DNA from: Blautia parvula
GTDB lineage: Bacteria; Bacillota; Clostridia; Lachnospirales; Lachnospiraceae
DNA: 64,000 nucleotides
Assembly (NCBI RefSeq): GCF_020215665.1
Contig: NZ_CP084061.1
Span: 4,493,001-4,557,000, forward strand
Reading direction: 5' to 3'
Below are positions 2,145-19,081 of the stretch, one piece after another. A program made the position numbers and the translations under genes. Within the stretch, counting starts at the first letter, position 1. Each line of letters opens with the position of its first letter. The notes under the pieces are model-generated. The model had not been told where the DNA came from, searched no databases, and worked only from the letters and a program-made list of their open reading frames with translations.

Positions 2145-2177
2145 GTCTCGTTTTGGAGAGGAAAGTGGGGAAAAACT

Positions 2178-3521: not shown

Positions 3522-3542
3522 CATACAGGAGGATATGTAAAT

Positions 3543-4415: not shown

Positions 4416-4424
4416 GGTATGCGG

Positions 4425-5255
4425 ATGAAGAAAAAAAGAGTGATTGCAAGTATCCTTTTCCATATAGTATTGTTGGTGGCTGTGCTGTTCATCCTGTACC
4501 CCTTCGTATTTATGATATCAGGAGCACTTAAGACGGATCTGGAGATGAACAGGCATATATTACGGCTGATTCCGAGGGAGATAACCCTTGATAATTTTAA
4601 AACCCTATTTGAGACTATCCCGTTCTGGAAGCAGTTTATGAACAGCTTTTGTGTGGCTGCGGCTGCTGCGGTTCTTGCTATGCTGGTTGACGGGCTGGTG
4701 GCATATGGATTCACAAGATTTGAATTTAGAGGAAAAGGTATTCTTATGAGCCTGATACTGGCAACGATGCTGATACCCCCGCAGGTGCTGATGGTTCCCC
4801 AGTTTCAGATGTATAAAACCATGGGGCTGTTCGGATCGTATGTACCCCTGATCATACCGGCACTGATAAACGCATTTGGAATATTTCTGCTGTGTCAGAT
4901 CATGGGACAGATTCCAAAAGATTTATATGAGAGCGCAATGATTGATGGGTATGGTGAGTTTAAGATATTCATGAAGATAGCAATACCCCTAAGTAAGGCA
5001 GGAATTGGCATACAGGGTGTTCTTACATTTATGAATACATGGAATGATTTTATGACGCCTTTGATCTATCTGAATGCGGAGGAAAAGTATACACTGCCTA
5101 TTGGCCTCATGCGTCTTCAGAGTTTTTATAAGATATCTTACGGGGCACCTCTTGCAGGGGCGTTACTGTCATGTATTCCGGTTATCATTATACTGGCTGT
5201 AGTGGGGCAAAAATATTTTGTGAAGGGACTGATGGCAGGGGCCGTCAAGGGTTAA
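4425..5255 (+). CDS. sugar ABC transporter permease, MalG/UgpE type
   Basis: Second membrane subunit of the importer, 276 residues. The EAA loop appears as LYESAMIDGYGEFKIF and then IAIPLSKAG around residues 170-195, and the protein ends in the family-typical GLMAGAVKG. Of two in-frame ATGs (4419 and 4425), the second is chosen because GAGG at 4414-4417 sits seven bases from it but only one base from the first. It follows the MalF-type gene with almost no gap, so coupled translation is likely. Confidence 0.92.
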   Translation: MKKKRVIASILFHIVLLVAVLFILYPFVFMISGALKTDLEMNRHILRLIPREITLDNFKTLFETIPFWKQFMNSFCVAAAAAVLAMLVDGLVAYGFTRFEFRGKGILMSLILATMLIPPQVLMVPQFQMYKTMGLFGSYVPLIIPALINAFGIFLLCQIMGQIPKDLYESAMIDGYGEFKIFMKIAIPLSKAGIGIQGVLTFMNTWNDFMTPLIYLNAEEKYTLPIGLMRLQSFYKISYGAPLAGALLSCIPVIIILAVVGQKYFVKGLMAGAVKG

Positions 5256-5286
5256 GTAAGCAGAAGGGATAAGTGTGTAGGTAGAT

Positions 5287-8136
5287 ATGAAAAGCTATAT
5301 AGTGACAGAAAAGGGAATGGACCTGCTGACAGGTCTGGCAGCAAAGGAATTAAGGCGTTATCTTTATGTGTTGGGTTTGGAGCTGCCGCTGATAGTGAAT
5401 AAAATGCCGGATAGCGGGAATGCGATAATTGCCGCATGTAAAGGAAGCAGCTTATTAGAATCATATGGACATGTTCTGGACTATACAGATCTTGGTGAAG
5501 AAGGATATATCTTGTATGGTTCAGGTACCGGAAAGGATCCGGTCATACTTACCGGAAATACGGAGATTTCTGTACTTTACGCAGCGTATCATTTTTTGGA
5601 GCTGCTGGGAATCAGATTTTATCTTCATGGGGATACCATACCGGAAGAGGATTGTGCTGTTGACATATGGAATAGGAAGATAAATATCAGAGAAATACCA
5701 ATTTTTAAGGAGAGAGGAATCCATCCGTTTCATGACTTTCCGGAGGGACCGGATTGGTGGAATAAGGATGATTATTATGCGATTCTGACACAACTGCCGA
5801 AGATGCGGGCTAATTTTTTTGCACTCCATACCTATCCTGAAAACAGGGAAGAACCAAAGGCAATGACCGCAGAACCACTGGTCTGGATCGGAAAGAAAGA
5901 AGACTGTAATAAAGATGGCACGGTAAAGTACAGTTATCCGGTCCAGCATTTTAAGACCAATGGAAACAGCTGGGGATATCATCCTATGAAGACAAAGGAT
6001 TACCCTTGCGGGGTGGGAAATATATTTGAGAAAGACTGTTATGGCCCAGATTATATGCAGGGGTATGAAGACGAAATATACAGTCATGAAATACACGAAG
6101 CAGATGTTCCGGCCGAGAAGTATAATCGGATGTTTAACGCTTATGGTAAAGTTTTGGCAGAGACCTTTTCTTATGCTAAAAAGATGGCCGTTAAGACATG
6201 TATAGGAACAGAAGCTCCCCTGACAATACCGGAAGCAGTAAGAAAACGTCTGGGTATTACAGAAGAGCCGGATAAAGAAATGATTCAAAGCCTTTATGAA
6301 GGTATTTTTGAAAGAATCAAAAGGACCCATTCCCTTGATTATTATTGGATGTGGACACCGGAAGACTGGACATGGCTTGGAAATACAAAGGAAGATACAG
6401 AAAAAACCATAAGGGACTTTTCCTGTGCCTTGGAGGCAAAAGAGAAGGTGGATGCCCCCTTTGAGCTGGCTGTCTGTGGCTGGACATTGGGTCCACAGGA
6501 GGACCGCGCGGCATTTGACAAGTATCTGCCGGAGAATATGCCATTTTCATGTATTAACAGAAATGTAGGCTTTGATCCGATTGAGCCTAAATTTCAGGAT
6601 TTGAAAAAAGACAGGCCATCCTGGGCAATACCCTGGCTGGAGGATGACCCTGCCATGATTTCTCCCCAGTTATGGGTGGGCAGGATGCGCAGGGATGCCT
6701 TCGACGCCAAACGATACGGTTGTGACGGACTTCTTGGGATTCACTGGAGAACAAGTAGTATTGCGCCAAATATTAAAGCACTGATGGAAGCCGCCTGGGA
6801 GCAGCCCTGGAATGAGTCAGTGTCTGAAAAAATATGTCTGGAAGGATATGTGGGAGCGGATTCTTATACAGAGGAATACCCTGAGTGCAAGGGCGTTTTG
6901 AACACAGCCAGAAAGGGGTGTTCAGGGTATGTTTTAAAACTTCCGCCGGGAAATTATACAGTATGTATGGTATTCCAGAAGTGTGATGCAAAACTGGATA
7001 TTAAGATCAAAAACCTGATTTTACGTGATAGAATGATCAGTGAGGAAAATAATGAAATTTGTGTCCCTGATATAGAGGTGGAACAGGATACGGTCCTTTC
7101 CATTGATTTTATGGTAAAAGAAGGATGCCCGGCAATTTCCGCTGTCACAATTGAGGGAGCGACCAAAAATAACCAGCTTGCGGGCAATGATTTCTCCAGG
7201 AAAATAAACTGCGGAGGCACAAGTTGGCAGGACTATGAAGCCGATTTGGAACTGTATAAAAAAAATGGACGCTGTGCTCCGACCGGTGACTTTTACCGAA
7301 ATTTTTCTGTAGCTGAATTTGGTAAAGGAGCAGGGGAAAAAGCAGCAGATATTTTTGCAGAACAGGATGGAAATATGCCCAGGCCAAGCAGATGGGAAGA
7401 TGGACCGGGGAATATATACTGCAATGAGATTCCCTGGGACGATATGAAGAAGCAGTATGACTTTGTGGATAAATTCGAGAAGCTGGGAACTTTGATACAC
7501 AGTGCAGGTGAAAAATCCCGTTATGATTATTGGAACCATACATTTCAGGCAATGAAGCGGACTGCTGAGATCGGATGTCTGTGGGGAAGCTTTGAAATAC
7601 ACTGTAAAGCAGACAGCCATGAAAGTGCATTGGCAGATTATAAAGAACTGCTCAGAGCGGTGGAAGAGCTGGAATATCATCTGCTGATGGCTGTAGAATC
7701 CAATGGAGACATGGGGGTTATAACAAATATACAGCAGAGAGCGGTTACGCCTATACTGAGACAATGTAAAGATAAACTGACAAAGTGGTATTCTGATCTG
7801 CCGGAGTTGAAGGGGAATGTGGTAGACAAGGCATTAAGACTTGTTGTTCCTACGGCCAGAACTTCCCTGCAGAGAGGAGAGGATTTAAGGCTGAAGGTAA
7901 TTGTCATAGGCGGCAGTGAAATATCGCCGGTTTTGGATATAAGATATATAGGATGTTCGGAATACAGGAGGTATAAGTTTGCAAAGTGTGAAAGGTGGGT
8001 GTACTCCCTGACAGTCCCGGCGGCAGAACTGGCGGAAGATTTTGAGTATCATATTTCACTGGAGGAAAATGGCAGGCGGCTGGTATACCCCTGCAGTTCT
8101 AAACATCAGGACCAGACAGTAGTTATAGCAGATTGA
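5287..8136 (+). CDS. large putative glycoside hydrolase with hexosaminidase/alpha-glucuronidase-type N-domain
   Basis: A 949-residue protein without a signal peptide. Residues 1-125 look like the small alpha/beta domain found before the barrels of GH20 and GH67 enzymes (ELRRYLYVLG, then VILTGNTEISVLYAAYHFLE and GIRFYLHGDTIPE). A barrel-like region follows to about 520, with WMWTPEDWTWLG and DGLLGIHWRTSS. From about 520 to 760 there are malectin-like beta-sandwich signatures (GNYTVCMVFQKC, PAISAVTIEG, INCGGTSWQDYEADL). I cannot assign a CAZy family or catalytic pair. As the last gene of the importer operon it probably acts on the imported glycan in the cytoplasm. The ribosome site before the ATG is weak (GTAGGTAG). 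Confidence 0.6.
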   Translation: MKSYIVTEKGMDLLTGLAAKELRRYLYVLGLELPLIVNKMPDSGNAIIAACKGSSLLESYGHVLDYTDLGEEGYILYGSGTGKDPVILTGNTEISVLYAAYHFLELLGIRFYLHGDTIPEEDCAVDIWNRKINIREIPIFKERGIHPFHDFPEGPDWWNKDDYYAILTQLPKMRANFFALHTYPENREEPKAMTAEPLVWIGKKEDCNKDGTVKYSYPVQHFKTNGNSWGYHPMKTKDYPCGVGNIFEKDCYGPDYMQGYEDEIYSHEIHEADVPAEKYNRMFNAYGKVLAETFSYAKKMAVKTCIGTEAPLTIPEAVRKRLGITEEPDKEMIQSLYEGIFERIKRTHSLDYYWMWTPEDWTWLGNTKEDTEKTIRDFSCALEAKEKVDAPFELAVCGWTLGPQEDRAAFDKYLPENMPFSCINRNVGFDPIEPKFQDLKKDRPSWAIPWLEDDPAMISPQLWVGRMRRDAFDAKRYGCDGLLGIHWRTSSIAPNIKALMEAAWEQPWNESVSEKICLEGYVGADSYTEEYPECKGVLNTARKGCSGYVLKLPPGNYTVCMVFQKCDAKLDIKIKNLILRDRMISEENNEICVPDIEVEQDTVLSIDFMVKEGCPAISAVTIEGATKNNQLAGNDFSRKINCGGTSWQDYEADLELYKKNGRCAPTGDFYRNFSVAEFGKGAGEKAADIFAEQDGNMPRPSRWEDGPGNIYCNEIPWDDMKKQYDFVDKFEKLGTLIHSAGEKSRYDYWNHTFQAMKRTAEIGCLWGSFEIHCKADSHESALADYKELLRAVEELEYHLLMAVESNGDMGVITNIQQRAVTPILRQCKDKLTKWYSDLPELKGNVVDKALRLVVPTARTSLQRGEDLRLKVIVIGGSEISPVLDIRYIGCSEYRRYKFAKCERWVYSLTVPAAELAEDFEYHISLEENGRRLVYPCSSKHQDQTVVIAD

Positions 8137-8173
8137 TCTGCCCATTTCTGGAATTACTATATATAGAAATACA

Positions 8174-8214
8174 GACAGGATATTTTCTGCAGAGATCAGC
8201 GGAAATATCCTGTC
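8174..8214 (+). terminator. rho-independent terminator after the UroD/ABC/glycosidase operon
   Basis: The 12-bp arms GACAGGATATTT (8174-8185) and AAATATCCTGTC (8203-8214) are perfectly complementary and are followed by TATGTTTTT. The site is 38 bp after the glycosidase stop and 47 bp before the 3' end of the convergent redox operon. Confidence 0.85.
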
Positions 8215-8260
8215 TATGTTTTTACGGACCAGCGGAGAAACAATCGCCCCCGCATTACTC

Positions 8261-9007
8261 CTATTTCGGACAAATATACCGCGGCAGCCCCATACTATGC
8301 CTCCCATACTCAATTGCCTCTTTCGGACAGCGGCAGATACATGCCATACAATGCGTACAATCTTCCCCCCACACCGGTTTCCCGTCATCCATATGGATAT
8401 TGCCCAGCGGACACACATCTGCACATTTTCCGCAGGAGATACAGGAGTCTGCTGCGGAAAACTTCTTTGCATGAACAAACACAGGATAAAAGATATCGTT
8501 GACAATGCTGCTGTTTATTTTATCTTTTACGGTAAGATGACTCTGCGGGAACTTTTTTCCGCCCTTTATCAGGCGTGCGGCATTGTCTATATGGGTTTCT
8601 GCAAGGCGGATGGTTTCCAGCGCCTCTTCTCTGCCGGGAGTGGAGAACATGGCTATATAATTCTCGGGCATGAGGAGGGGAAAGCATCCTGAAAAATCCA
8701 TGTTTTTAGAACTGCATAGTTTTTTTAGATACTTTTCCGCATTTCCGATACTGCCTCCGCAGGTCATGAGAAAATAAATCTCTCTGCTGCCGGACAGCGC
8801 AGTCTTTTCCAGCCATGCATGCAGAATGCGGGGGATTCTCCATGCATAGGTGGGTGAGACGATAACCCACGGCCTGTCAGAGCGCATGGCTGAAAAGTCA
8901 TGGTTTCTGATCCTTTCAAACAGATTCGTAACTTCATCTCCGATTTCTTTACCAATCCGCTTTGCAGCATATTCACTGTTGCCTGTTCCTGAAAAATATA
9001 AGATCAT
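8261..9007 (-). CDS. EFR1-type flavodoxin-ferredoxin fusion
   Basis: A 248-residue electron-transfer protein. The N-terminus MILYFSGTGNSEYAAKRI is a flavodoxin-like FMN phosphate-binding loop. The C-terminal quarter carries two 4Fe-4S ferredoxin motifs, CISCGKCADVCPLGNI and CTHCMACICRCPKEAI. This combination defines the EFR1 family of putative flavo-ferredoxins. The ATG at 9007 is chosen because the GGAGG (complement of 9016-9020) is eight bases upstream; the longer frame would start on a TTG upstream of that site. It is the last gene of a three-gene minus-strand operon with an ArsR repressor and a ferredoxin-nitroreductase, pointing to a redox role. Confidence 0.88.
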   Translation of the reverse strand: MILYFSGTGNSEYAAKRIGKEIGDEVTNLFERIRNHDFSAMRSDRPWVIVSPTYAWRIPRILHAWLEKTALSGSREIYFLMTCGGSIGNAEKYLKKLCSSKNMDFSGCFPLLMPENYIAMFSTPGREEALETIRLAETHIDNAARLIKGGKKFPQSHLTVKDKINSSIVNDIFYPVFVHAKKFSAADSCISCGKCADVCPLGNIHMDDGKPVWGEDCTHCMACICRCPKEAIEYGRHSMGLPRYICPK

Positions 9008-9036
9008 GGGACTGTCCTCCAAAATATAAAAAATTG

Positions 9037-9381
9037 TTATGACCGTGAGCTGATGTGCCGGATACTTCCATAGATAAGGTTAACTAAATCAGCGATTTCC
9101 TTCCACTGCGTTTCCTCTGCACTTAAATAATAATAGTTTTTTGTTCCTTCTTTCCGCATTGCGACGATACCGGATTCTTTGAGGATCTGAAGGTGATGGG
9201 ATACAGAAGGTCTTGTCAGATGCGTCTTTTGCGCAATCTCTCCTACCCGAATACCTGACAGGTCGCTTTCCAGCAGAACAAGCAGGATGAGCTGCCTTGT
9301 ATCATCTCCAATGGCAGAAAAGGCATTTCTGTTCTTTTGGAATCCGTCTACTATTTTTTTCAGTCTTTCTTCACATTCCAT
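9037..9381 (-). CDS. ArsR-family winged-helix repressor
   Basis: A 114-residue regulator with a winged helix spanning most of its length: FSAIGDDTRQLILLVLLES, then the recognition helix THLTRPSVSHHLQILKESG and the wing VAMRKEGTKNYYYLS. This is a standard ArsR/SmtB layout. I see no CxC metal-binding pair in the alpha-3 helix, so it may sense something other than a metal through that site. It lies 16 bp after the nitroreductase and 29 bp before the flavodoxin-ferredoxin gene, and probably autoregulates this operon. GGAG precedes the ATG. Confidence 0.9.
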   Translation of the reverse strand: MECEERLKKIVDGFQKNRNAFSAIGDDTRQLILLVLLESDLSGIRVGEIAQKTHLTRPSVSHHLQILKESGIVAMRKEGTKNYYYLSAEETQWKEIADLVNLIYGSIRHISSRS

Positions 9382-9397
9382 TATCGCACTCCATTTT

Positions 9398-10171
9398 CTA
9401 TAGATATCTTACATCTAAAGGTTCACGCTGCGCCGGGCGGAGATATTTTACATCCGGATATCCTAATACCAAAGTCATGGCAGCATGCTTTCCACGGGGT
9501 ATTTTCAAAGCTTTTTTGATTTTGAAAGAATGGTTGGCTGCGGTTGTAAAAAAGCCGCTGTACAAGACTCCAAGTCCGTTTGCTTCTGCAGCGAATTCCA
9601 TATTCTGGGCGGCCAGGATACCGTTTGTTTTATTTTTCGCCAGAATGACAATAACGACGGGGGCACGGAAAAAGAAAAAGTGTTTATCAATCTTATTACG
9701 CCTTGCCATGGGGCTGAATAGGTCAGCAGCAGGTTTTATTTTTTGAAAGAGGCTGACTGCCATCTGTTCTATGTTGTCTTTTTCTTTATCAAGGACAACA
9801 AAGGATACGTCCTGCATATTCTTTGCTGTATGGGTGAGTCTTCCGGCTTCCAGAATCTGGTCCATGATCTCTTTTGGTATCTTTTTATCCCGGAATTGCC
9901 GGATACTTCTTCGGAAACGGATCGTATCCAGAACTGCCGGCGGGTCTAAACGCACTTCCGGGTTCCTGTAAGTGTCCTCATGTTCATAACCGCTTATGGA
10001 AGCGGCCTCTTTGGGACAGACAGCGGTGCACTGTCCGCACATAAGGCAGTCATCCAGTATGATTTTGGCCTTCTTATTCTTCAGCTCTATGTTATGTGCC
10101 GGGCATGTCTTCACACATATCCCACAGCCAACGCATTTGTCTGTATCTATTCTTACCTGATGTTTTTTCAC
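9398..10171 (-). CDS. nitroreductase-family protein with N-terminal 2x[4Fe-4S] ferredoxin domain
   Basis: This 257-residue fusion starts with a two-cluster ferredoxin (CVGCGICVKTCPAHNI and CLMCGQCTAVCPKEAA, residues about 13-55), then an FMN-binding nitroreductase fold from about 80 (RFRRSIRQFRDKKIP, the usual RRSxRxF phosphate-binding motif; AANGLGVLYSGFF). Such clostridial fusions reduce substrates with electrons from ferredoxin. It is read from a GTG at 10171 with AAGGA upstream and is the first gene of the redox operon. Its physiological substrate is unknown. Confidence 0.88.
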   Translation of the reverse strand: MKKHQVRIDTDKCVGCGICVKTCPAHNIELKNKKAKIILDDCLMCGQCTAVCPKEAASISGYEHEDTYRNPEVRLDPPAVLDTIRFRRSIRQFRDKKIPKEIMDQILEAGRLTHTAKNMQDVSFVVLDKEKDNIEQMAVSLFQKIKPAADLFSPMARRNKIDKHFFFFRAPVVIVILAKNKTNGILAAQNMEFAAEANGLGVLYSGFFTTAANHSFKIKKALKIPRGKHAAMTLVLGYPDVKYLRPAQREPLDVRYL

Positions 10172-10317
10172 GGCTGAAATCCTTTCGTTTAAGTATGTTA
10201 ACCATTATACAGAACAAAAATGCCGGATACAACATTGGTAAAGAAATCGGTTACCATAAAAATGATCCCCGGCCGCTGTTCATTTCGTGCCCGGCAGCAC
10301 GCTTTGTAATGCACAGC

Positions 10318-10357
10318 AACGGGGTATTTCTGCGCATATTTACAGAAATACCCCGTT
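10318..10357 (-). terminator. strong hairpin after the larA-like gene, possible terminator
   Basis: The arms 10318-10332 and 10343-10357 (AACGGGGTATTTCTG and its complement) form a perfect 15-bp stem with a 10-base loop, 41 bp downstream of the epimerase stop on the minus strand. There is no clear U tract on either side, so it may be a processing or weak termination element rather than a classical terminator. Confidence 0.5.
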
Positions 10358-10397
10358 GTTTATAAAACAATGCAAAGATTCAATTTATATTTTCCCG

Positions 10398-11666
10398 TCA
10401 GTCCACTTTCCAAAGACCCAAAGCAGGCGTCTTCACAAAATAAATCTCTTCCCCGTTCTCCAGTGTGTTCCACCCGTCGTGCAAAGTCTCCGGATCGTAC
10501 AGGGATGCGGCTTTTTCATAATCCATCCACTGATAGCCCACACTCTCAATCTCTTCTTTTGAAAGATTTTCCGGTCTGGTACAGTATGTGATCCGGAATC
10601 TTCCGTCAGAGGAGCCCTGGATCAGATGAGCGGCAGCCATGATCCTGTTCTCAAAAGCACCTTCATTGAACAGTTTCAGCACATAGTCCCGGCCCTTGTA
10701 GCCGTATGTCCTGGTCATATGATCCATCTCTTCGTTTTCGCCGAAGGCCTTGACGCCGGGAGCCAGAATGATAAGGTCCCCTCCGTCGGCGACTGCCATT
10801 CTTGTGCGGTAGATGCCTTTGTTTCCCACCCATGTGGTTTTCAGCTCATAGGGGTCCAGATAGGTGACAAGTTTTTTTGCCCTGCGCTCCACATGACAGA
10901 TGTTCAGCTTTTCCGAGAGCTGGACCGCAAGCTCAAATGGTTTTCTGGAAGGCCCTGTGTAAAGTCCGTTCAGGCAGATTTCCTCATCCTTTAAGGTGGT
11001 GACAGTCTGGATATACACCAGGGGGAGTTTTCCGTCCAGGAAATGCTGCTGGGCATAGTCGAAGACTTTCCTTGCGGGGGAGTCCGCAACACCCAGGGCC
11101 TTCTCCATACCGCAAATGGCGCTGAGCATGTGGGATTTGTTGATCATCTGGCGTCCGCCCACACCTACGAAGATGTTCTTGCTGTAATTGGCCATGCCCA
11201 CAACCTCGTGGGGAACCACCTGTCCGATGGAGAGAATCAGGTCATATCCTCCGTGGATGAGCTTTTCATTGACCTCCACCTCAATGTCCGTGGAATACAG
11301 CCCTCCGGAAATTTCCTCGATGACTTCCTTAGGCACTTTTCCGATGGAAACGGTGTCTGTCTGCCAGTGGTGTACTAAAAATGCTTCCTCAGGCACGACA
11401 TGGCCGAACATCTTTTCCTTCTCCTCTGCGTCCATTGCCATGTGGGTGCCCAGGGCGGGCATCACATGTACGGTGGCGGTGGGGGACAGCTTCTTATAGA
11501 GAATCTGTGTCAGTTCCCCGGCATAGGAGTAGCAGCGGGTGAAATCCGGCGGTATGATAAGCACCTTTTTTAAGTCCGGGTACTGGGCCAGCAGTTCATC
11601 CATGCATTTCTCCACTTCAGCGGGAGTGATACCGGAAGTTTCATTTGTCAGGTATATCTCGTTCAT
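10398..11666 (-). CDS. LarA-family nickel-pincer racemase/epimerase (sugar-acid type predicted)
   Basis: A 422-residue member of the lactate racemase family (DUF2088), which uses a nickel pincer nucleotide to epimerise alpha-hydroxyacids at C2. The residues known from L. plantarum LarA are present with exact spacing: DFTR (D41, R44), GTH (H75), then H153 of VPHE, K163 ten residues later (the Lys that carries the cofactor) and H179 sixteen after that. AGGAGG precedes the ATG. It lies 31 bp after a zinc dehydrogenase gene in a region with GntP, IlvD/Edd and SDR genes, so a D-gluconate 2-epimerase-like role fits better than lactate. LarB, LarC and LarE are not in the window. Confidence 0.82.
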   Translation of the reverse strand: MNEIYLTNETSGITPAEVEKCMDELLAQYPDLKKVLIIPPDFTRCYSYAGELTQILYKKLSPTATVHVMPALGTHMAMDAEEKEKMFGHVVPEEAFLVHHWQTDTVSIGKVPKEVIEEISGGLYSTDIEVEVNEKLIHGGYDLILSIGQVVPHEVVGMANYSKNIFVGVGGRQMINKSHMLSAICGMEKALGVADSPARKVFDYAQQHFLDGKLPLVYIQTVTTLKDEEICLNGLYTGPSRKPFELAVQLSEKLNICHVERRAKKLVTYLDPYELKTTWVGNKGIYRTRMAVADGGDLIILAPGVKAFGENEEMDHMTRTYGYKGRDYVLKLFNEGAFENRIMAAAHLIQGSSDGRFRITYCTRPENLSKEEIESVGYQWMDYEKAASLYDPETLHDGWNTLENGEEIYFVKTPALGLWKVD

Positions 11667-11697
11667 AGATTCCTCCTGTTTCTGTCAATGGATTGAT

Positions 11698-12720
11698 TTA
11701 GTCTTCAAACTTCAGGACAAGCTTCAGTACATCCTGGGGATGTTCCGTGATCATGGTCAGAGCTTCCATTATATCTTTGTAATTGTAGGATTTTGTCATG
11801 AGCTGTTCCGGATGGAGGGTGCCGTCCTCAAAGCCGGCGATCACTTCGTCGAAACAGTTGTTGTTCAGACGTGAGCCTGCAATGGTCAGTTCCTTTTTGG
11901 TGATGTCAGCCATGGTGATCTGAGAGGGAACATTCTTCAGTCCGAGAACTACAATACGTCCGGCCGGGCAGGCAAGCTGTACACTCTGCTCAAAGGAGGA
12001 GGGGATGCATACAGTGTCTACGATCACCGGGATTCCTTCTCCGTCTGTGAATTTCAGGAGACGTTCCTCCAGGTTCTCCTCAGATACCAGAACCACTTCG
12101 TCTGCACCCATGGAAAGGGCCTTGTCAAGGCGTTCTTTTACCAGGTCTGTCATGATGACTTCAGCGCCGTTTCTTTTAGCAACCTGCATAGCAGCAATAC
12201 CGATAGGGCCGGAACCCATGATCAGCACCTTGTCGCCCTTTGTGATCTGGCCTCTTCTGTTGATCTCCACGCCGATGGTGAAAGGCTCGACCAGTCCCAG
12301 GAAGGATTCATCAAAATCCTTGTGGAATTTGTGGATGTTGGCTTCCGGAGCGCATACGAACTCAGCAAAGCCGCCGTCCCTGTGAACGCCCATGACTTCC
12401 AGGGTAGAGCATACATTGTGGCGTCCAATCCTGCAGGCATAGCAGTGGCCGCAGCTTATAACCGGGTCAACGGCAACCTTGTCGCCTGCCTTTACGGATG
12501 TTACATTTTTACCTGTCTCTGTTACGATTCCACCGAACTCATGGCCGATCAGACGCGGATAAGTTGCCAGTGAATTGGTTCCGTTATATATACCGATGTC
12601 AGACCCGCAGATACCACCGGAGGTGATGCGCACGATTACATCATCATCATTTTTGATCTCCGGCTTGGGGACGTCGACGATTTCAACTTTGAATGGTTCG
12701 ATTACTTTAATGGCTTTCAT
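11698..12720 (-). CDS. zinc-dependent MDR alcohol dehydrogenase (polyol/sugar-acid type)
   Basis: A 340-residue medium-chain dehydrogenase. Catalytic zinc site: GGICGSD and GHEFGG. The structural zinc cysteines are in CGHCYACRIGRHNVC. Rossmann motif GSGPIGIAAMQ is followed by an acidic residue (MTDL), suggesting NAD preference. The ATG at 12720 is chosen because AAGGAG lies upstream and homology starts with MKAIKV; the longer frame adds an unrelated leader. It is the first gene of the minus-strand pair with the LarA-like epimerase and is transcribed away from a GntR regulator. The closest families oxidise polyols or hexonates (idonate/gulonate 5-dehydrogenase, threonine dehydrogenase relatives). 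Confidence 0.85.
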   Translation of the reverse strand: MKAIKVIEPFKVEIVDVPKPEIKNDDDVIVRITSGGICGSDIGIYNGTNSLATYPRLIGHEFGGIVTETGKNVTSVKAGDKVAVDPVISCGHCYACRIGRHNVCSTLEVMGVHRDGGFAEFVCAPEANIHKFHKDFDESFLGLVEPFTIGVEINRRGQITKGDKVLIMGSGPIGIAAMQVAKRNGAEVIMTDLVKERLDKALSMGADEVVLVSEENLEERLLKFTDGEGIPVIVDTVCIPSSFEQSVQLACPAGRIVVLGLKNVPSQITMADITKKELTIAGSRLNNNCFDEVIAGFEDGTLHPEQLMTKSYNYKDIMEALTMITEHPQDVLKLVLKFED

Positions 12721-12764
12721 GTGATTAGAACACTCCTTTTTATTTGAAAAATAAACGTTGATAT

Positions 12765-12776
12765 AGAACACGTTCT
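12765..12776. promoter_or_regulatory. palindrome upstream of the dehydrogenase gene
   Basis: AGAACACGTTCT has half-sites AGAAC and GTTCT around two bases and lies 45 bp upstream of the dehydrogenase start. It is a candidate operator or promoter-proximal site for the minus-strand pair. Confidence 0.35.
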
Positions 12777-12790
12777 GTATATTGCAGCGC

Positions 12791-12884
12791 AACTGATATA
12801 TTAATTCGCGGCTTTTATTCTCAAGAATATGAAGAAAACAAGCCGAAATGGAATGGATGGATGAAATGAATTGATATATCAGTT
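12791..12884. repeat. 17-bp inverted repeat pair in the divergent regulatory region
   Basis: AACTGATATATTAATTC (12791-12807) and GAATTGATATATCAGTT (12868-12884) are reverse complements at 16 of 17 positions, 60 bp apart. They lie in the 357-bp space between the divergent dehydrogenase and GntR genes. Spacing and symmetry suggest paired regulator sites or a looped operator. The rest of this gap holds no gene that I can see. Confidence 0.55.
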
Positions 12885-12975
12885 ATCCTGAAACTACTAT
12901 AACAAATGCAGAAGCAAAGTACAATATGAAAAAGTGCCAACATATAAATGAGATTTATGTATAGAATTCACAAAA

Positions 12976-12987
12976 CGTATGACGTCT
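12976..12987 (+). promoter_or_regulatory. shared hexonate-regulon motif, copy 1
   Basis: CGTATGACGTCT lies about 90 bp upstream of the first GntR gene. Close copies occur in the GntP promoter (13865) and 5' of the dehydratase gene (16503). Consensus of the three: CGTRTGAYGTCT. Confidence 0.5.
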
Positions 12988-13077
12988 CTTGTCTTATGAT
13001 GCTGCTTGAGTTGACGCGGTGTCCAGGGTATGTTACGCTTCAGTAAAAGAGAGAATATACAGGACAGAGGACAGATT

Positions 13078-13773
13078 ATGACCATTAAAATATCAGAGAA
13101 GAGAGAAAAGGAAAATAACCGGGAATATGCCTACAGGCTGCTGAGAAGCAACATCATGACGCTGCAGCTCATGCCGGGGGCCACATTAAATGAAGGGGAG
13201 CTGACTGAGCTGCTGGGAATCAGCAGGACGCCCATACATGAGGCGATCATTATGCTGAAGGAGGAATCCCTTGTGGATGTTTTTCCGCAGAGCGGTTCCA
13301 GGGTTTCCATGATTCATATAGATATATTGAAGGAAGGGTATTTTGTCAGATCCGTGATCGAACCGGAGATCATTCGCCAGATTGCAGGCAATATAAAGGA
13401 AGAGGGAATGAAAATCCTGAAGGACAACCTGGACAGGCAGAAGGCAGCGCTGGAAGATGAGGAGAAGATAGACCCCTTCTTCAAGCTTGACGATGAATTT
13501 CATCATCTGATCTATACCATGGCGGGAAAGCAGAAGACCTGGTATGCCATGAAAAAGGTCAGTTCTCATTACGACAGGGTCAGGTATCTGGATGCGATCA
13601 TGAACAAGACTGACCTTACAGCCATTCATCAGGAGCACAGGGATATCTATCATATGCTGCTTCTGGGACTCTCTGTGGACTTTGATCTGAAGATTTTTTA
13701 TGACCGGCATTTGGGTACCTACCGGAGACATTTCCAGGAAATACTTGAAAAATACCCAGAGTATTTCTGCTAG
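13078..13773 (+). CDS. GntR-family regulator with FCD ligand domain
   Basis: A 231-residue transcription factor. The N-terminal winged helix covers about residues 10-80 (YAYRLLRSNIM, PGATLNEGELTELLGISRT, then DVFPQSGSRVS). An all-helical FCD domain follows, with the metal-site pattern DDEFHHLIY and a later HQEH. FCD regulators bind sugar acids or organic acids. The ATG at 13078 is chosen because GAGG precedes it and the GntR homology begins just after. It sits between the divergent dehydrogenase/epimerase pair and the GntP permease and probably controls both. Confidence 0.9.
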   Translation: MTIKISEKREKENNREYAYRLLRSNIMTLQLMPGATLNEGELTELLGISRTPIHEAIIMLKEESLVDVFPQSGSRVSMIHIDILKEGYFVRSVIEPEIIRQIAGNIKEEGMKILKDNLDRQKAALEDEEKIDPFFKLDDEFHHLIYTMAGKQKTWYAMKKVSSHYDRVRYLDAIMNKTDLTAIHQEHRDIYHMLLLGLSVDFDLKIFYDRHLGTYRRHFQEILEKYPEYFC

Positions 13774-13860
13774 CAGCGCGTTAAAGTGAAATGCGATATA
13801 AAAAGTGCACAAAAAGTTTATGGAAAATTTATAATAAACTTACATAATTTATATTTACCC

Positions 13861-13889
13861 TTGACGTGTGACGTCTGATTTGTTATAGT
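13861..13889 (+). promoter_or_regulatory. promoter of the GntP permease gene
   Basis: TTGACG (13861-13866), a 17-base spacer and TATAGT (13884-13889) form a good vegetative promoter. The copy of CGTRTGAYGTCT at 13865-13876 fills the spacer, so its bound regulator would block RNA polymerase. Confidence 0.7.
13865..13876 (+). promoter_or_regulatory. shared hexonate-regulon motif, copy 2 (operator inside promoter)
   Basis: CGTGTGACGTCT overlaps the -35 box and spacer of the permease promoter. The placement is that of a repressor operator; the likely binder is one of the two local GntR/FCD proteins. Confidence 0.5.
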
Positions 13890-13981
13890 CGAACTATGGA
13901 ATGGATGAGAGGTCATACGTGTTATTACTTGCTGAAGAAGTGACAGGGATAACAGGAAAAGGGAAAAGGAGGAAAACGTAT

Positions 13982-15379
13982 ATGTTTTCAGGAGAAATGG
14001 TAACAGGGCCATTGCTGATAGGTATTTTTATTCTTGCAATTGTCGTATTATTGTTGTTGATCATTAAATTTAAGCTGAACGCTTTTGTTGCGCTGTTGAT
14101 CACCGCATTTGGCACAGGTGTGCTGGTGAATATGCCGCTGGCTGATGTGGCGCAGACCGTTACAGACGGATTCGGCGGTACTCTGGGCGGTATCGGTATG
14201 GTAACAGGTCTTGGTGTAATGCTGGGTAAGTTCATGTTCGAGTCCGGCGGTATTGAGTCAATTTCCAATAAGATATTAGGTGCATTCGGTGAGAAAAAAT
14301 CACCTATCGCCGTAGCACTTTCAGGATTTATCACAGGTATTCCGGTATTCGGCGATGTTGTTTACATCATGTTTGCCCCAATGCTCCGTGTGCTTTCCAA
14401 AAAAACAAAGATCTCCATGGTAACATTTGCCTGTGCGATCTCTGTTGCAACAACATGTACTTTCGCATTAGTGCTTCCTACAGCGCCGCCGCTGGCTGTT
14501 GCTGAGGAGCTGAATATTGAAATCGGTATTTTCTTCTTCTATGCATTGATCTCCGCATTTGTGGGAATGATCGTGGGCGGTATCTTCTATGGTTCTATCC
14601 TGAACAAGCAGGACCACAAGAACAACCACTTCTATACATTTGAGGATCTGGATGAAGAAGAAGCAGAAATGTCCAAGAGCGGAAAAGGAAAAGAGCGCGC
14701 GAAAATGGGCGCAGGCAAGGCATTGTCCATCCTTCTTGTTCCCATCGTACTGATTCTGCTGGGAAGTTTTATCCCTCTTGCAGTGGGAAAAGATTCCGCG
14801 ATCGTTCCGTTTGTGACATTTATCGGAAATAAAAACTTTGCCATGATGGCAGGTGTTATCTACGCTGCAGTCATCTCAAGAAAATACATCACTAAGACAG
14901 CCACAGACATTATGACAGAGGCTGCCGACCAGGTTGGTCTGATTCTGTTGATCACAGGTGCAGGCGGAGCTTTCGGTAAGGTTCTGCAGGCTACAGGTAT
15001 CGCTGATTATGTTGCAGGTTCCCTGTCACAGTTCAGCATTCCGATTCTGGTACTGTGTTTCCTGATCGCACAGATCATCCGCTGCGCACAGGGCTCCACA
15101 ACTGTAGCGCTTATGACAACAGCAGCGATCATGTCCAGCACAATTGCATCCGGCGGTGTATCCCCGATTCTGTGTGCAATTGCTATCTGTGCAGGCGGTA
15201 TCGGCCTTTCACTGCCGAACGACTCCGGATTCTGGGCAATCAGCCGGTTCTTTAAGATTTCTGTTACGGATACTATCCGTGGATGGAGTATCGGCGGTTT
15301 TGTTGCCGGCGTGGCAATTCTCATATTTGTATCCATACTTTCTCTGTTCCAGGGCTTCCTGCCGGGACTTATGATGTAA
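13982..15379 (+). CDS. GntP-family gluconate/sugar-acid:H+ symporter
   Basis: This 465-residue membrane protein has about 12-14 hydrophobic segments. GntP features are clear: PLLIGIFILAIVVLLLLI at the N-terminus, GTLGGIGMVTGLGVMLGK, the GDVVYIMFAP and CTFALVLPTAPPL regions, and the late QGSTTVALMTTAA and LPNDSGFWAISRFF motifs. Length matches the family (about 440-470). The ATG at 13982 has AAAGGAGG just upstream; the longer frame would begin inside the 5' leader predicted from the promoter. GntP proteins import gluconate, idonate, fructuronate or related acids, which fits the dehydratase, SDR and LarA-like genes around it. Confidence 0.92.
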   Translation: MFSGEMVTGPLLIGIFILAIVVLLLLIIKFKLNAFVALLITAFGTGVLVNMPLADVAQTVTDGFGGTLGGIGMVTGLGVMLGKFMFESGGIESISNKILGAFGEKKSPIAVALSGFITGIPVFGDVVYIMFAPMLRVLSKKTKISMVTFACAISVATTCTFALVLPTAPPLAVAEELNIEIGIFFFYALISAFVGMIVGGIFYGSILNKQDHKNNHFYTFEDLDEEEAEMSKSGKGKERAKMGAGKALSILLVPIVLILLGSFIPLAVGKDSAIVPFVTFIGNKNFAMMAGVIYAAVISRKYITKTATDIMTEAADQVGLILLITGAGGAFGKVLQATGIADYVAGSLSQFSIPILVLCFLIAQIIRCAQGSTTVALMTTAAIMSSTIASGGVSPILCAIAICAGGIGLSLPNDSGFWAISRFFKISVTDTIRGWSIGGFVAGVAILIFVSILSLFQGFLPGLMM

Positions 15380-15403
15380 GTGTGAGAGCATAAGGTTAAA
15401 GCT

Positions 15404-15434
15404 GCCGTCCGGGGGATGCGTTTCTCCGGACGGC
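15404..15434 (+). terminator. rho-independent terminator after gntP-like gene
   Basis: GCCGTCCGG (15404-15412) pairs with CCGGACGGC (15426-15434) and is followed by ATTTTTTAT, 25 bp after the permease stop. Confidence 0.9.
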
Positions 15435-15475
15435 ATTTTTTATGCTGTGCCTGGTAGACTTTCTTTAAACGAACA

Positions 15476-15484
15476 TGCTATAAT
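15476..15484 (+). promoter_or_regulatory. extended -10 promoter of the second GntR gene
   Basis: TGCTATAAT is a TGn-extended -10 element about 140 bp upstream of the second GntR start; no good -35 box is visible. This leaves a long 5' leader. Confidence 0.45.
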
Positions 15485-15623
15485 ATGTAAACAAATGCTG
15501 AAAAATGCAGAAAACCTTCGACAAAAAGTACCCCTGACAGGGTTCCGTCTGTGATACACGTACAGCAAAACAGTGGTTATGAGGGTGCAGGATCATTATA
15601 AACAGGTAAAGAGGTAATTATAT

Positions 15624-16319
15624 ATGTTAGAATCGTTGAATGAAAGTAAAAAATTACTGCCTGAGAGAGTGGCAGAGCAGATTATCAGCCTGATAGCGGA
15701 CAGGGCGCTGAAGGCGGGGGATAAGCTGCCGAATGAATTTGATATGGCACAGCAGTTATCCGTGGGAAGAGGTACCATAAGGGAGGCAGTGAAGATCCTT
15801 GTCTCCAGAAACATCCTGGAGATCCGCCGGGGCTGCGGGACTTTTGTCTGTGAAAATCCCGGAGTGGTGGATGACCCGCTGGGATTTGCCTTTGTGGATG
15901 ATAAGAAAAGGCTTGGCCTTGATCTTTGTGAAGTCCGCATGATCATTGAGCCGGAAATCGCAGCGCTTGCCGCAGAGCGGGCCATGCCGGAGGAAATAGA
16001 AGAGCTGCAGCGGATCGAGGATGAGGTGAAAGAACTCTGCGACAAAGAGGAGCCTCATATGCACAAGGACATTGAGTTCCACGAAATGCTGGCAAAGATG
16101 AGCAAGAATATGATCATGCCGAATATCATTCCGGTCATCCAGTCAGGTATTTCCCTTTTTATAAATATCACGGACTATTCCCTGACAAAGGAAACCGTGC
16201 GCACTCACCAGATGATCGTGGATGCCATCAGAGAACGCAATCCCAAGGCTGCTAAGGATGCCATGATAGAGCATCTGGCAAGCAATCAGGATAAGATAGA
16301 GAGACTTTCCGGGCTGTAA
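15624..16319 (+). CDS. FadR-type GntR regulator with FCD domain
   Basis: A 231-residue regulator with a canonical FadR-subfamily winged helix (ISLIADRALKAGDKLPNEFD, then GRGTIREAVKIL and the wing RRGCGTFV) and a C-terminal FCD helical bundle (DIEFHEMLAKMS; the metal-site His near VRTHQMIVDAI). LldR, ExuR-like and related proteins of this group sense hydroxy acids and hexuronates. It is a separate transcription unit with terminators on both sides, between GntP and the dehydratase operon. AGAGG precedes the ATG at 15624. It may bind the CGTRTGAYGTCT motif, as may the first GntR protein; sequence alone does not decide. Confidence 0.9.
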   Translation: MLESLNESKKLLPERVAEQIISLIADRALKAGDKLPNEFDMAQQLSVGRGTIREAVKILVSRNILEIRRGCGTFVCENPGVVDDPLGFAFVDDKKRLGLDLCEVRMIIEPEIAALAAERAMPEEIEELQRIEDEVKELCDKEEPHMHKDIEFHEMLAKMSKNMIMPNIIPVIQSGISLFINITDYSLTKETVRTHQMIVDAIRERNPKAAKDAMIEHLASNQDKIERLSGL

Positions 16320-16329
16320 CAGGCCCGGA
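16308..16329 (+). terminator. terminator overlapping the end of the second GntR gene
   Basis: TCCGGGC (16308-16314) pairs with GCCCGGA (16323-16329), then TTTTTTATT. The stop codon lies in the loop, so ribosomes finishing the gene may interfere with the hairpin. Confidence 0.85.
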
Positions 16330-16459
16330 TTTTTTATTGCACACGGCGCAGAAGGAAAAAGTCCCGGGTGCCGTGCATGAAAGCGGCCTCTTGTTTTGTG
16401 AAATATGCATAAATTTCGGAGGGTAAAAATAAGCAAAAGGGATAAAATAAGTGAGCCTC

Positions 16460-16488
16460 TTGACCCCGGGGAAAAGAAGTGTTACTAT
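16460..16488 (+). promoter_or_regulatory. promoter of the dehydratase/SDR operon
   Basis: TTGACC (16460-16465), 17-base spacer, TACTAT (16483-16488). The regulon motif follows at 16503, near the expected transcript start. Confidence 0.65.
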
Positions 16489-16502
16489 ACAAACAGATAC
16501 GA

Positions 16503-16514
16503 CGTATGATGTCT
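16503..16514 (+). promoter_or_regulatory. shared hexonate-regulon motif, copy 3
   Basis: CGTATGATGTCT lies 15 bp after the -10 box of the dehydratase promoter, in the early transcribed region, where a bound regulator would act as a downstream repressor. Confidence 0.5.
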
Positions 16515-16583
16515 TCAAAAAAACCAATCCATTCCAAATCAAGCAGCGATTCATCAGATTCACTTAGTCAAAGGAGAACGATT

Positions 16584-18305
16584 ATGAAGTTAAGAAGCCA
16601 GGAATTAAGAAAAATTGCACCGGAATTAGACCCGCTCCGTCTGGGAACAGGATGGAAGCTGGAGGATTTGTCAAAACCCCAGATTATGATTGAGAGTACC
16701 TTTGGTGACAGCCATCCGGGCAGCGGACACCTGCTGGAGCTTGTGGAGGAGGCCAGGGCAGGAATCGCTGAGGCGGGCGGACACGGCGCCAGATATTTTA
16801 CCACGGACATCTGTGACGGCGAGGCCCAGGGCCACGATGGAATCAACTATTCCCTGGCATCCAGAGATATGATCGCCAATATGATCGAGATCCATGCCAA
16901 CGCCACACCTTTTGACGGCGGCGTGTTCGTTGCAAGCTGTGACAAGGGAATGCCGGCGCACCTGATGGGCGTGGGAAGAGTGAACATTCCTTCCATTATT
17001 GTGACAGGCGGTGTTATGGACGCAGGTCCTGACCTTTTGACACTGGAACAGATTGGTAAGTATAATGCCATGTGCGAGCGCGGGGAGATCACGCAGGAGA
17101 AGCTGACCTTCTACAAGCAGAACGCATGTCCCTCCTGCGGTGCCTGCTCTTTCATGGGAACCGCATCCACCATGCAGATCATGGCAGAGGCACTTGGCCT
17201 GATGCTGCCGGGAAGTGCGCTTATGCCCGCTACCAGCAAGGACCTGCGTGTAGTGGCAAGGGAAGCGGGAAAACAGTCAGTATGGCTGGCAGAGCATGAT
17301 CTGACACCGGACAAGATTGTGACCATGAAGTCCTTTGAGAACGCCATCATGGTGCACGCTGCAATCTCCGGCTCCACAAACTCCCTGCTCCACCTCCCGG
17401 CTATTGCAAGGGAATTCGGCATTGAGATCGACGGCGATACCTTTGACAGACTCCACAGAGGTGCACATTATCTGCTGAACATCCGTCCCGCAGGAGAGTG
17501 GCCGGCACAGTTCTTCTACTATGCGGGCGGCGTTCCGACCATTATGGAAGAAATCAAGGATATGCTGCATCTGGATGTGATGACAGTCACCGGTAAGACA
17601 TTGGGCGAGAACCTGGAGGAACTGAAAAAGAACGGCTTCTATGATAAATGCGACAGCTACCTGGAAAAAGTGGGTCTGAAAAGGGAAGATGTGATTCGTC
17701 CTTTTGACAAACCTTTTGGAACAGACGGCAGTATTGCCATTCTCTACGGCAACCTGGCTCCGGAAGGGGCTGTGGTAAAGCATACCGTAGTTCCGAAAGA
17801 AATGTTCGAGGCTACCCTGAAAGCACGTCCTTTTGACTGTGAGGAGGATGCCATCCACGCGGTGCTGACTCATGAGATCAAACCCGGTGACGCGGTGATC
17901 ATCCGTTACGAGGGACCGAAAGGAAGCGGTATGCCGGAGATGTTCTATACCACAGAGGCCATTGCGTCTGACGCGGAGCTGGGCGCTTCCATTGCCCTTC
18001 TCACAGACGGAAGATTTTCAGGAGCATCCAAGGGTCCTGCAATCGGACATATCTCTCCGGAAGCGGCAGAGGGCGGTCCCATCGCTCTGGTTGAGGAGGG
18101 CGATCTGATCGAGGTGAATATTCCGGGCCGCGTGCTCCGCATAGTGGGAATCGCAGGTGAGAAGAAGACACAGGAAGAGATTGAGGCTGTTTTAAAGGAA
18201 CGCAGAAGCAAATGGCAGCCAAAACCTGTAAAATATGAAAAGGGTGTCTTGAAAATCTTCTCAGAAAGGGCCGTCTCTCCTATGAAGGGCGGATACATGG
18301 AGTAA
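16584..18305 (+). CDS. IlvD/Edd-family dehydratase, probable sugar-acid dehydratase
   Basis: A 573-residue Fe-S dehydratase that removes water from 2,3-dihydroxy acids. Cluster ligands lie in SCDKGMPAHLMG and CPSCGACSFMGTAST. The C-terminal swivel domain has the catalytic-serine region LLTDGRFSGASKGPAIGHISPE. The N-terminal motif is STFGDSHPGSGHL instead of the NSWNE-type motif of biosynthetic IlvD, which points to the sugar-acid branch (arabonate, xylonate, gluconate or related). The ATG at 16584 has AAAGGAG upstream; the longer frame would begin inside the promoter. It is followed 5 bp later by an SDR gene. No branched-chain amino-acid genes are nearby, so catabolic formation of a 2-keto-3-deoxy acid is the inference. 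Confidence 0.85.
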   Translation: MKLRSQELRKIAPELDPLRLGTGWKLEDLSKPQIMIESTFGDSHPGSGHLLELVEEARAGIAEAGGHGARYFTTDICDGEAQGHDGINYSLASRDMIANMIEIHANATPFDGGVFVASCDKGMPAHLMGVGRVNIPSIIVTGGVMDAGPDLLTLEQIGKYNAMCERGEITQEKLTFYKQNACPSCGACSFMGTASTMQIMAEALGLMLPGSALMPATSKDLRVVAREAGKQSVWLAEHDLTPDKIVTMKSFENAIMVHAAISGSTNSLLHLPAIAREFGIEIDGDTFDRLHRGAHYLLNIRPAGEWPAQFFYYAGGVPTIMEEIKDMLHLDVMTVTGKTLGENLEELKKNGFYDKCDSYLEKVGLKREDVIRPFDKPFGTDGSIAILYGNLAPEGAVVKHTVVPKEMFEATLKARPFDCEEDAIHAVLTHEIKPGDAVIIRYEGPKGSGMPEMFYTTEAIASDAELGASIALLTDGRFSGASKGPAIGHISPEAAEGGPIALVEEGDLIEVNIPGRVLRIVGIAGEKKTQEEIEAVLKERRSKWQPKPVKYEKGVLKIFSERAVSPMKGGYME

Positions 18306-18310
18306 AGCAG

Positions 18311-19081
18311 ATGCACGCACAGGATTTATTTGATATCAGCGGAAAAAAAGCCATTGTGACCGGCGGGACAAGAGGACTGGGTTACGGAATGGCGGAAGGC
18401 TATATGGAAGCAGGCTGTGAGGTAGCGATCGTGGGTACCTCTGACAGTGTGTTCCGGGTGGCGGAGGAATTTAAGAGCCGTGGATTTAAATGCCACGGAG
18501 TCAAGGGAAATCTGGGGGACAGGGAGGATATATACCGTGTTTTCCGGGAGTGCCTGGACAGTCTGGGCGGTGATGTGGATATTCTTCTCACTGCCCACGG
18601 AATCCAGAGACGCCACAGTGCGGAAGAGTTTCCGTTGGAGGAGTGGGATGAGGTCATCCGCGTGAACCTGACCAGCATTTTTATCCTCTGCCAGGAGGCA
18701 GCCAGGGTGATGCTGAAAAAGGGTTACGGCAAGATCATCAACATTGCCTCTATGAATTCCTTTTTCGGCGGCCAGACCATACCTGCATACGCGGCATCCA
18801 AGGGTGGTGTGGCACAGCTTACCAAGGAACTCACCAATGACTGGCTGGCAAGAGGAATCAATGTGAATGCCATTGCGCCGGGGTATATGGCGACGGAGAT
18901 GAACAAGGCGCTTATGGATCCGGAAAATCCAAGATTTGCGTCTATTTCGGAGAGAATCCCGGCACACCGCTGGGGAACCGGGGATGACATGAAGGGCGCG
19001 GCTATTTTCTTGGCCTCCCATGCAAGTGATTACGTGAGCGGTGCGGTGATCCCGGTCGACGGCGGGTATCTGGTGAAATAA
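18311..19081 (+). CDS. KduD/gluconate 5-dehydrogenase-like short-chain dehydrogenase
   Basis: A 256-residue classical SDR: NAD(P)-binding TGGTRGLGYGMA, NAHG-equivalent LLTAHGIQ, catalytic Ser in NIASMNSFFGG, YAASK (Tyr and Lys) and the C-terminal SDYVSGAVIPVDGGY. Overall pattern resembles 2-deoxy-gluconate 3-dehydrogenase (KduD) and gluconate 5-dehydrogenase. It is co-transcribed with the dehydratase and probably interconverts keto and hydroxy forms of the same sugar acid. No KDG kinase or aldolase is in the window, so lower steps must be encoded elsewhere. Confidence 0.85.
   Translation: MHAQDLFDISGKKAIVTGGTRGLGYGMAEGYMEAGCEVAIVGTSDSVFRVAEEFKSRGFKCHGVKGNLGDREDIYRVFRECLDSLGGDVDILLTAHGIQRRHSAEEFPLEEWDEVIRVNLTSIFILCQEAARVMLKKGYGKIINIASMNSFFGGQTIPAYAASKGGVAQLTKELTNDWLARGINVNAIAPGYMATEMNKALMDPENPRFASISERIPAHRWGTGDDMKGAAIFLASHASDYVSGAVIPVDGGYLVK

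Follow-up and report, generated by a model that had tools for sequence, protein, structure and literature searches.

We found that a gene in a 64,000-nucleotide stretch of Blautia parvula DNA (contig NZ_CP084061.1, positions 4,493,001 to 4,557,000; hereafter the window) encodes what is, judged by its sequence, a real and intact protein of LarA group 18, which had been named and predicted before. Its most likely function is that of a hexonate C2 epimerase, probably inverting one carbon of gluconate or mannonate so that the adjoining genes can import and degrade these acids. In the reading that we favour, with a probability of roughly 0.6, the protein would be a GntE-type nickel-pincer-nucleotide (NPN) 2-epimerase that interconverts D-gluconate and D-mannonate and feeds a gluconate dehydratase leading to KDG. 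The dehydrogenases encoded at the locus allow either this activity or an L-gulonate/L-idonate epimerase. The gene context is clearer than the initial annotation of the locus could see, and its features are collected in Table 1.

Table 1. Genes and operator-like sites around the epimerase gene, in window positions
Feature	Position	Strand	Basis
larA-group-18 gene, putative nickel-pincer-nucleotide hexonate 2-epimerase, 422 aa	10398..11666	-	Profiles, alignment, predicted fold; residue roles from the consulted parts of PMC7583248 and PMC11770544
Zn-dependent sugar-acid dehydrogenase (ZnDH), RspB/LgoD-like, 340 aa	11698..12720	-	PRK10083 338.7 bits; RspB 4ILK 278.6 bits
Imperfect palindrome AACTGATATATTAATT before the ZnDH-epimerase unit, possible GntR operator	12791..12806	.	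Sequence inspection
Near-palindrome AATTGATATATCAGTT, partner of the 12791 palindrome; perfect palindrome AACTGATATATCAGTT in genus copy L056	12869..12884	.	
Operator-like site ACGTATGACGTC before gntR1	12975..12986	+	Pattern search
GntR/FCD regulator 1 (gntR1), likely start ATG 13078	13078..13773	+	Profiles, start inspection
Operator-like site ACGTGTGACGTC before gntP, over a stretch promoter-like by eye	13864..13875	+	Pattern search
GntP-family gluconate-type permease, likely start ATG 13982 after GGAGG	13982..15379	+	TIGR00791 312.4 bits, above the cut-off of 292.75
GntR/FCD regulator 2	15624..16319	+	Profiles
Operator-like site ACGTATGATGTC before ilvD	16502..16513	+	Pattern search
IlvD/Edd-family sugar-acid dehydratase, 573 aa, ATG 16584 after AAAGGAG; proposed gluconate dehydratase	16584..18305	+	Profiles
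SDR, KduD/gluconate-5-dehydrogenase type, adjoining ilvD	18311..19081	+	Profiles

The putative epimerase

The open reading frame of the epimerase starts with an ATG preceded by AGGAGG. Its product scored above the gathering cut-off of Pfam Lar_N (55.5 against 23.3 bits) and, over its full length, above the cut-off of the NCBIfam model of group 18 (NF052594, 603.5 against 500 bits), while the other NCBIfam models gave at most 60 bits. An AlphaFold2 model built from 46 sequences (pLDDT 93.8, pTM 0.92) retrieved 18 PDB entries or chains at E<=0.001 in a fold search, all of them LarA or LarA-like, with 4NAR at the top (TM 0.85, 24% identity in the fold alignment). In the sequence search against solved structures, 4NAR gave 128.1 bits and the next match, a lactate racemase, 24.5. 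Both profile scores and the fold matches thus put the LarA-family match far beyond chance.

The initial annotation had read D41, R44, H75, H153, K163 and H179, with spacings of 10 and 16 residues, from the open reading frame, and they are indeed there. These residues are identical in 46 of 46 aligned sequences (the window protein plus 45 relatives) and also unchanged within each sub-branch of the tree described below (13 and 36 rows). Following the residue roles given in the literature, D41, H75, H153 and K283 would form the catalytic set and R44, K163 and H179 the NPN-binding set, K283 being the retained counterpart of LarA K298. Alignment with 4NAR outlines a GntE-type pocket of E154, V155, W279, A346 and H347. 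The GntE signature published in the accessible part of PMC11770544 consists of E, V, A and H at LarA positions F175, F176, W358 and T359; it is present in our protein as E154, V155, A346 and H347, where the match of A346-H347 with W358/T359 is our own reading of the 4NAR alignment.

The consulted sections of PMC7583248 identify 4NAR as GntE2, a D-gluconate 2-epimerase by assay. The same sections, which defined group 18 in 2020 and hypothesised hexonate epimerisation for it, link groups 18, 19 and 20 through a common pocket made of an E-V/S loop, a W in helix 11 and an A/V in helix 14. In agreement, NCBIfam names NF052594 "nickel-dependent putative hexonate epimerase" (NPN_18_hexonate). Among the open-licence papers that we searched, no assay of a group-18 protein was found. 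In Thermotoga, a nickel gluconate/mannonate epimerase is known in hexuronate breakdown. The initial annotation is thus supported as regards the most likely function of the protein, but given the Thermotoga enzyme, the prediction of 2020 and the NCBIfam name, the nickel-dependent hexonate route that it proposed is of a kind already known.

Neighbouring genes and proposed pathway

The ZnDH gene is located on the same strand as the epimerase gene and 31 bp upstream, which corroborates the previously noted pairing with a zinc dehydrogenase. Its start is ATG 12720 after GGAGTG, the very position at which the initial annotation had ended the pair, and not the mechanical TTG 12792. PRK10083 (RspB/LgoD type) was its best match of 27 families, with a score below the cut-off of 376; the L-idonate 5-dehydrogenase model gave 173.9 bits, and RspB is the nearest solved chain. 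The GntP, IlvD/Edd and SDR genes that had been placed around the epimerase are present as well, but on the opposite strand, across a divergent intergenic region.

The IlvD/Edd protein scored 521.5 bits with TIGR00110 (IlvD dihydroxy-acid dehydratase), under the cut-off of 618.15, and fell below the cut-offs of the named dehydratases. It is unlikely to be a branched-chain amino acid enzyme, since the genome holds four IlvD/Edd genes including this one. Two of the others give higher family-domain scores, and by our reading one of those two sits between leuB- and ilvB-like genes. In gut Blautia, gene clusters for the conversion of gluconate to KDG by a dehydratase are described in the consulted part of PMC11424487. 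In view of these clusters and of the missed cut-offs, the window enzyme would most simply be a gluconate dehydratase. The SDR resembles KduD and gluconate-5-dehydrogenase and is not of the mannonate oxidoreductase type.

We propose that GntP would import the hexonate and that the IlvD/Edd enzyme would dehydrate gluconate to KDG, which would be phosphorylated and then cleaved by Eda; the epimerase would bring mannonate to the same dehydratase. During the reaction, the C2 hydride would pass from the hexonate to the cofactor and the hydroxyl proton to H75 or H153; return of the hydride on the opposite face would invert C2. The ZnDH and the SDR would admit a C5 epimer to the pathway, taking L-gulonate through fructuronate to mannonate.

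An EFR1-family ferredoxin and a ferredoxin-nitroreductase fusion are encoded at 8261-10171, on the strand of the epimerase gene and downstream of it. We discarded them as pathway members because they are absent near the relatives' genes (no EFR1 ferredoxin/nitroreductase match within 6 kb of the epimerase gene among the best 80 loci listed) and because the downstream neighbour differs in the genus copies. Further on, a 949-aa protein (5287-8136) follows sugar ABC-transporter genes. Its score with the Pfam GH67 N-terminal domain lies just under the cut-off (24.2 against 24.3), it had no NCBIfam match at E<=0.001, and a 75% identical copy adjoins the epimerase gene in the genus copy L055.

Operator-like sites

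The motif ACGTRTGAYGTC, the core of a GACGT-N3-ACGTC palindrome, occurs upstream of gntR1, gntP and ilvD. With at most one mismatch, it has four matches in the window, three of them exact, against a mean of 0.47 in shuffled sequences, which never reached four. Genome-wide (6.25 Mb) there are four exact copies, three at this locus and one within another open reading frame; since the reversed control pattern has six, the motif shows no overall enrichment and the evidence lies in its clustering. Having three of the four exact copies before them suggests that gntR, gntP and ilvD may form one regulon. The motif is retained three times in each of the genus copies L054 and L055 and once in L056. The epimerase-ZnDH promoter lies in the same intergenic region as the first ACGTRTGAYGTC site and has in addition its own pair of TGATATATCA-type palindromes.

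Cofactor genes, pathway genes and other LarA homologues in the genome

The genome is a single contig of 6,247,046 bases. The initial annotation had proposed to look for larB, larC and larE, and the profile search detected all three above cut-off (292.6, 214.1 and 289 bits, respectively); larC and larE overlap by 4 bases and larB is 2.76 Mb away. The genome also encodes Eda, one UxaC and two UxuA proteins, the latter elsewhere than at the window locus. This rules out that the genome depends on the epimerase through a missing UxuA, and mannonate need not pass through the epimerase. The eda gene adjoins a PfkB-type gene that is KDG kinase-like (kdgK-like) by eye, both of them away from the window locus. 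A 6-phosphogluconate dehydrogenase is encoded too (654.7 bits), so gluconate could also exit by this enzyme if a kinase exists.

Three other LarA homologues were observed. At C1:2559000-2574000 (998-8887), a group-22 homologue (544.9 bits) follows a ZnDH and a GntP permease, and this gene set faces a tagaturonate reductase and a galactarate-dehydratase-like gene; perhaps it is the same combination of epimerase, ZnDH and GntP as in the window, for another sugar-acid series. Another group-22 homologue, at C1:810000-824000 (3237-8439; 502.4 bits), is found beside TRAP-transporter-like genes, with a neighbouring 329-aa protein that has no NCBIfam match at E<=1e-20. The third, at C1:4583000-4600000 (2458-9750), is a 525-aa protein nearest to groups 14, 15 and 16, with 177.2 bits far short of the cut-off of 740. 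Its cluster includes a ZnDH and, as named by eye, an SDR, transketolase-like halves and a pentulose-phosphate-epimerase-like gene. A further candidate at C1:478714 was rejected, as its 22.5 bits are under the Lar_N cut-off; this 371-aa protein is DUF362-like by our reading and had no NCBIfam match at E<=1e-20.

Relatives and two branches of group 18

Of 391 genomes sampled from the class, 58 encode a group-18 protein above cut-off; in the genus, 5 of 20 do, our own counted. From a scan of named genomes we took the 80 best-scoring loci, a set that therefore leans towards the window's protein. Neighbours within 6 kb were found by tblastn; in 8 of the 80, the epimerase escaped the calling of open reading frames, perhaps through longer overlapping frames. 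A 6-phosphogluconate dehydrogenase lies within this distance in 48 of the best 80 loci (47 on the same strand), a PfkB kinase in 28, an SDR mannonate oxidoreductase in 25 and a uronate isomerase in 11, while ZnDH, UxuA and GntP were found in 6 each and IlvD in 4. Many contigs are short, and 6 kb were available on both sides in 39 of the 80; of these, 24 have the 6-phosphogluconate dehydrogenase and 9 have none of the eight neighbours tested. The first four neighbours may be read as a mannonate-to-6-phosphogluconate context. The supplementary tables of the 2020 LarA paper give gene contexts (PMC7583248, consulted in part), and parts of the context described here may already be known, perhaps through them.

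A tree of 52 rows, including 45 of the best 80 loci (the other 35 are outside it) and 4NAR as a long outgroup branch, splits group 18 in two. The window's branch has 13 rows (support 95/91) and the larger branch 36 (99/100); L071 and L100 belong to neither and were excluded from branch counts. Among the eight of these loci that fall in the window's branch, ZnDH and GntP occur in 5 each, IlvD and UxuA in 4 each, and 6-phosphogluconate dehydrogenase in none. In the larger branch the latter is present in 24 of the 35 loci from this set, which fits a mannonate-to-gluconate conversion, and IlvD or UxuA in none of the 35. Outside the tree, L132 and L135 carry 6-phosphogluconate dehydrogenase and UxuA both within 6 kb, so the tree perhaps makes the contexts look more sharply separated than they are. 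Between the branches, the catalytic, cofactor and signature residues agree except for one row at 346. Seventeen alignment columns distinguish the branches, including V280/L and Q350/H, two positions near pocket residues in sequence, and the substrate of the window's branch may therefore differ.

The genus copies L054 and L055 keep the entire window arrangement, and in L056 and L057 the contig ends short of where IlvD could appear. In L064, ZnDH, epimerase, IlvD and SDR genes stand in a row, with GntR2 and GntP facing away; L065 and L067 have the order ZnDH-epimerase-IlvD-UxuA, and the PfkB match of L065 (33% identity) is likely a KDG kinase. Close to their epimerase genes, L064, L065, L067 and L068 encode an IlvD that shares 71-75% identity with the window enzyme, on the opposite strand in L068. 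Clostridium drakei (L069) has GntR-UxuA-SDR-GntP-ZnDH-epimerase plus a 218-aa open reading frame, and Sporobacter termitidis (L121) ZnDH-SDR-PfkB-Gnd-epimerase. The ZnDHs of L064, L067, L069, L077 and L121 share 54-80% identity among themselves and 33-37% with that of the window. It seems that the genus has replaced this enzyme by a different dehydrogenase from within the superfamily.

In five loci of the larger branch (L089, L106, L113, L118 and L143), uronate isomerase, mannonate oxidoreductase, epimerase, PfkB and 6-phosphogluconate dehydrogenase genes occur together. They are candidate genes for a uronate-to-pentose-phosphate route, and candidates also for the 6-phosphomannonate 2-epimerase gene of Lactobacillus suebicus.

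Which substrate

A D-gluconate/D-mannonate 2-epimerase is indicated by the group-18 score, by 4NAR as the nearest relative in sequence and in predicted fold, and by the putative GntE pocket. That its signature is common to the window's branch and the 6-phosphogluconate dehydrogenase branch (one row at 346 excepted) also argues for it, as do the mannonate-to-6-phosphogluconate context among the best 80 loci, the IlvD genes near the epimerase in four relatives, the clustered ACGTRTGAYGTC, the presence of Eda, UxuA and UxaC in the genome and the gluconate dehydratase clusters described for gut Blautia. On the other side stand the two UxuA genes elsewhere in the genome, the type of the window SDR, the branch-separating columns and the nine full-flank loci with none of the tested neighbours. 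Moreover, with IlvD and UxuA both beside the epimerase gene in L065 and L067, a gluconate/mannonate epimerase looks redundant there. Gene context can also mislead, as in the case of GntE1, for which the consulted part of PMC7583248 gives a very high Km for mannonate.

An L-gulonate/L-idonate 2-epimerase acting before the ZnDH seems to us unlikely, although this set of genes is compatible with it. L-gulonate would be converted to L-idonate, oxidised at C5 to 5-ketogluconate, reduced by the SDR to gluconate and dehydrated by IlvD to KDG. Epimerase, ZnDH, SDR and IlvD would then make one linear path, in keeping with the co-directional ZnDH gene 31 bp upstream and with an SDR of the gluconate-5-dehydrogenase/KduD type. 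The C. drakei set UxuA-SDR-GntP-ZnDH-epimerase would be linear too, given L-idonate as food, and the joint presence of IlvD and UxuA in L065 and L067 favours this path. The fungal glucuronate pathway carries out the same C2 inversion in two redox steps (PMC6353982, consulted in part). The window's branch would then hold a new nickel L-gulonate/L-idonate 2-epimerase activity, a possibility to which we give little credit, inverting C2 in one step where fungi use an oxidation and a reduction. More generally, such an enzyme would be a C2 switch joining the L-idonate/5-ketogluconate/gluconate and L-gulonate/fructuronate/mannonate branches, which meet at KDG. Against it, the pocket carries the D-gluconate/D-mannonate GntE signature and is near-identical in the 6-phosphogluconate dehydrogenase branch; the ZnDH is closer to PRK10083 than to L-idonate 5-dehydrogenase (338.7 vs 173.9 bits); and the S. 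termitidis locus, where ZnDH accompanies SDR-PfkB-Gnd-epimerase, calls for conversion of mannonate to gluconate. The D-gluconate/D-mannonate reading gains from this locus, from the common pocket and from the resemblance of the ZnDH to RspB/LgoD.

Less probable still is that the enzyme inverts C2 in some other pair of aldonates, for example L-galactonate/L-talonate or D-altronate/D-allonate. The PRK10083/LgoD family of the ZnDH presumably includes L-galactonate dehydrogenases, and a group-22 LarA homologue of the genome is paired with ZnDH, GntP and tagaturonate reductase; but no altronate dehydratase or tagaturonate reductase was found in the ten window genes scanned (5287-19081), and the relatives carry UxuA, IlvD or 6-phosphogluconate dehydrogenase nearby (eight neighbours tested). 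We consider very improbable a phosphorylated substrate, with 6-phosphomannonate converted to 6-phosphogluconate. The larger branch is often accompanied by PfkB kinase and 6-phosphogluconate dehydrogenase, and 6-phosphomannonate 2-epimerisation was measured in extracts of L. suebicus, with no gene assigned to it in 2020 in the consulted part of PMC6978723. However, the ten scanned window genes include no kinase or 6-phosphogluconate dehydrogenase, and the genus members G400 and G406 (91% complete) carry the epimerase gene with no 6-phosphogluconate dehydrogenase match. Finally, a lactate or malate racemase belongs to the same superfamily but can be dismissed with near certainty, as NF033504 gave 42.5 bits against a cut-off of 460, the malate models 60 and 45.3 (cut-offs 500 and 462), and the lactate signature F, F, W has given way to E, V, A. 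The initial annotation, which took the protein for a LarA-family enzyme other than a strict lactate racemase, is confirmed in this sense, and with larB, larC and larE in the genome neither of the objections that it foresaw applies.

Significance

The gene sets narrow the substrate of group 18 mainly to two C2-epimer pairs and point to two different downstream uses of a seemingly near-identical pocket. How gut Blautia and its relatives use gluconate bears on competition with Enterobacteriaceae, according to the consulted part of PMC11424487. In this context, a nickel epimerase step would make part of Blautia gluconate use nickel-dependent.

Comparison with known systems

With lactate racemase LarA (group 1), the window protein has the fold and the NPN-binding and catalytic residues in common and differs in the pocket residues. 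It is nearer to GntE2 of Thermotoga maritima (4NAR, group 20), with which it shares the catalytic set, the E after the second catalytic H, the W in helix 11 and the A-H in helix 14; the two are 24% identical in the fold alignment, and S156 and G286 of GntE2 correspond to V155 and N282. GntE2 was proposed to feed a gluconate kinase and the pentose phosphate route (PMC7583248 and PMC6978723, both consulted in part). As for group 18 itself (NF052594), the full-length match and the cofactor, catalytic and group-signature residues are shared with no defining difference; within the group, the window belongs to the smaller tree branch, whose neighbours are GntP, ZnDH and dehydratases, not 6-phosphogluconate dehydrogenase. 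The gluconate dehydratase route of gut Blautia, as far as the consulted part of PMC11424487 describes it, is alike in the gluconate-type permease, the proposed KDG-forming dehydratase and the Eda encoded in the genome. To this route, the window locus adds a putative nickel epimerase, a ZnDH and an SDR, while eda and the kdgK-like gene lie elsewhere.
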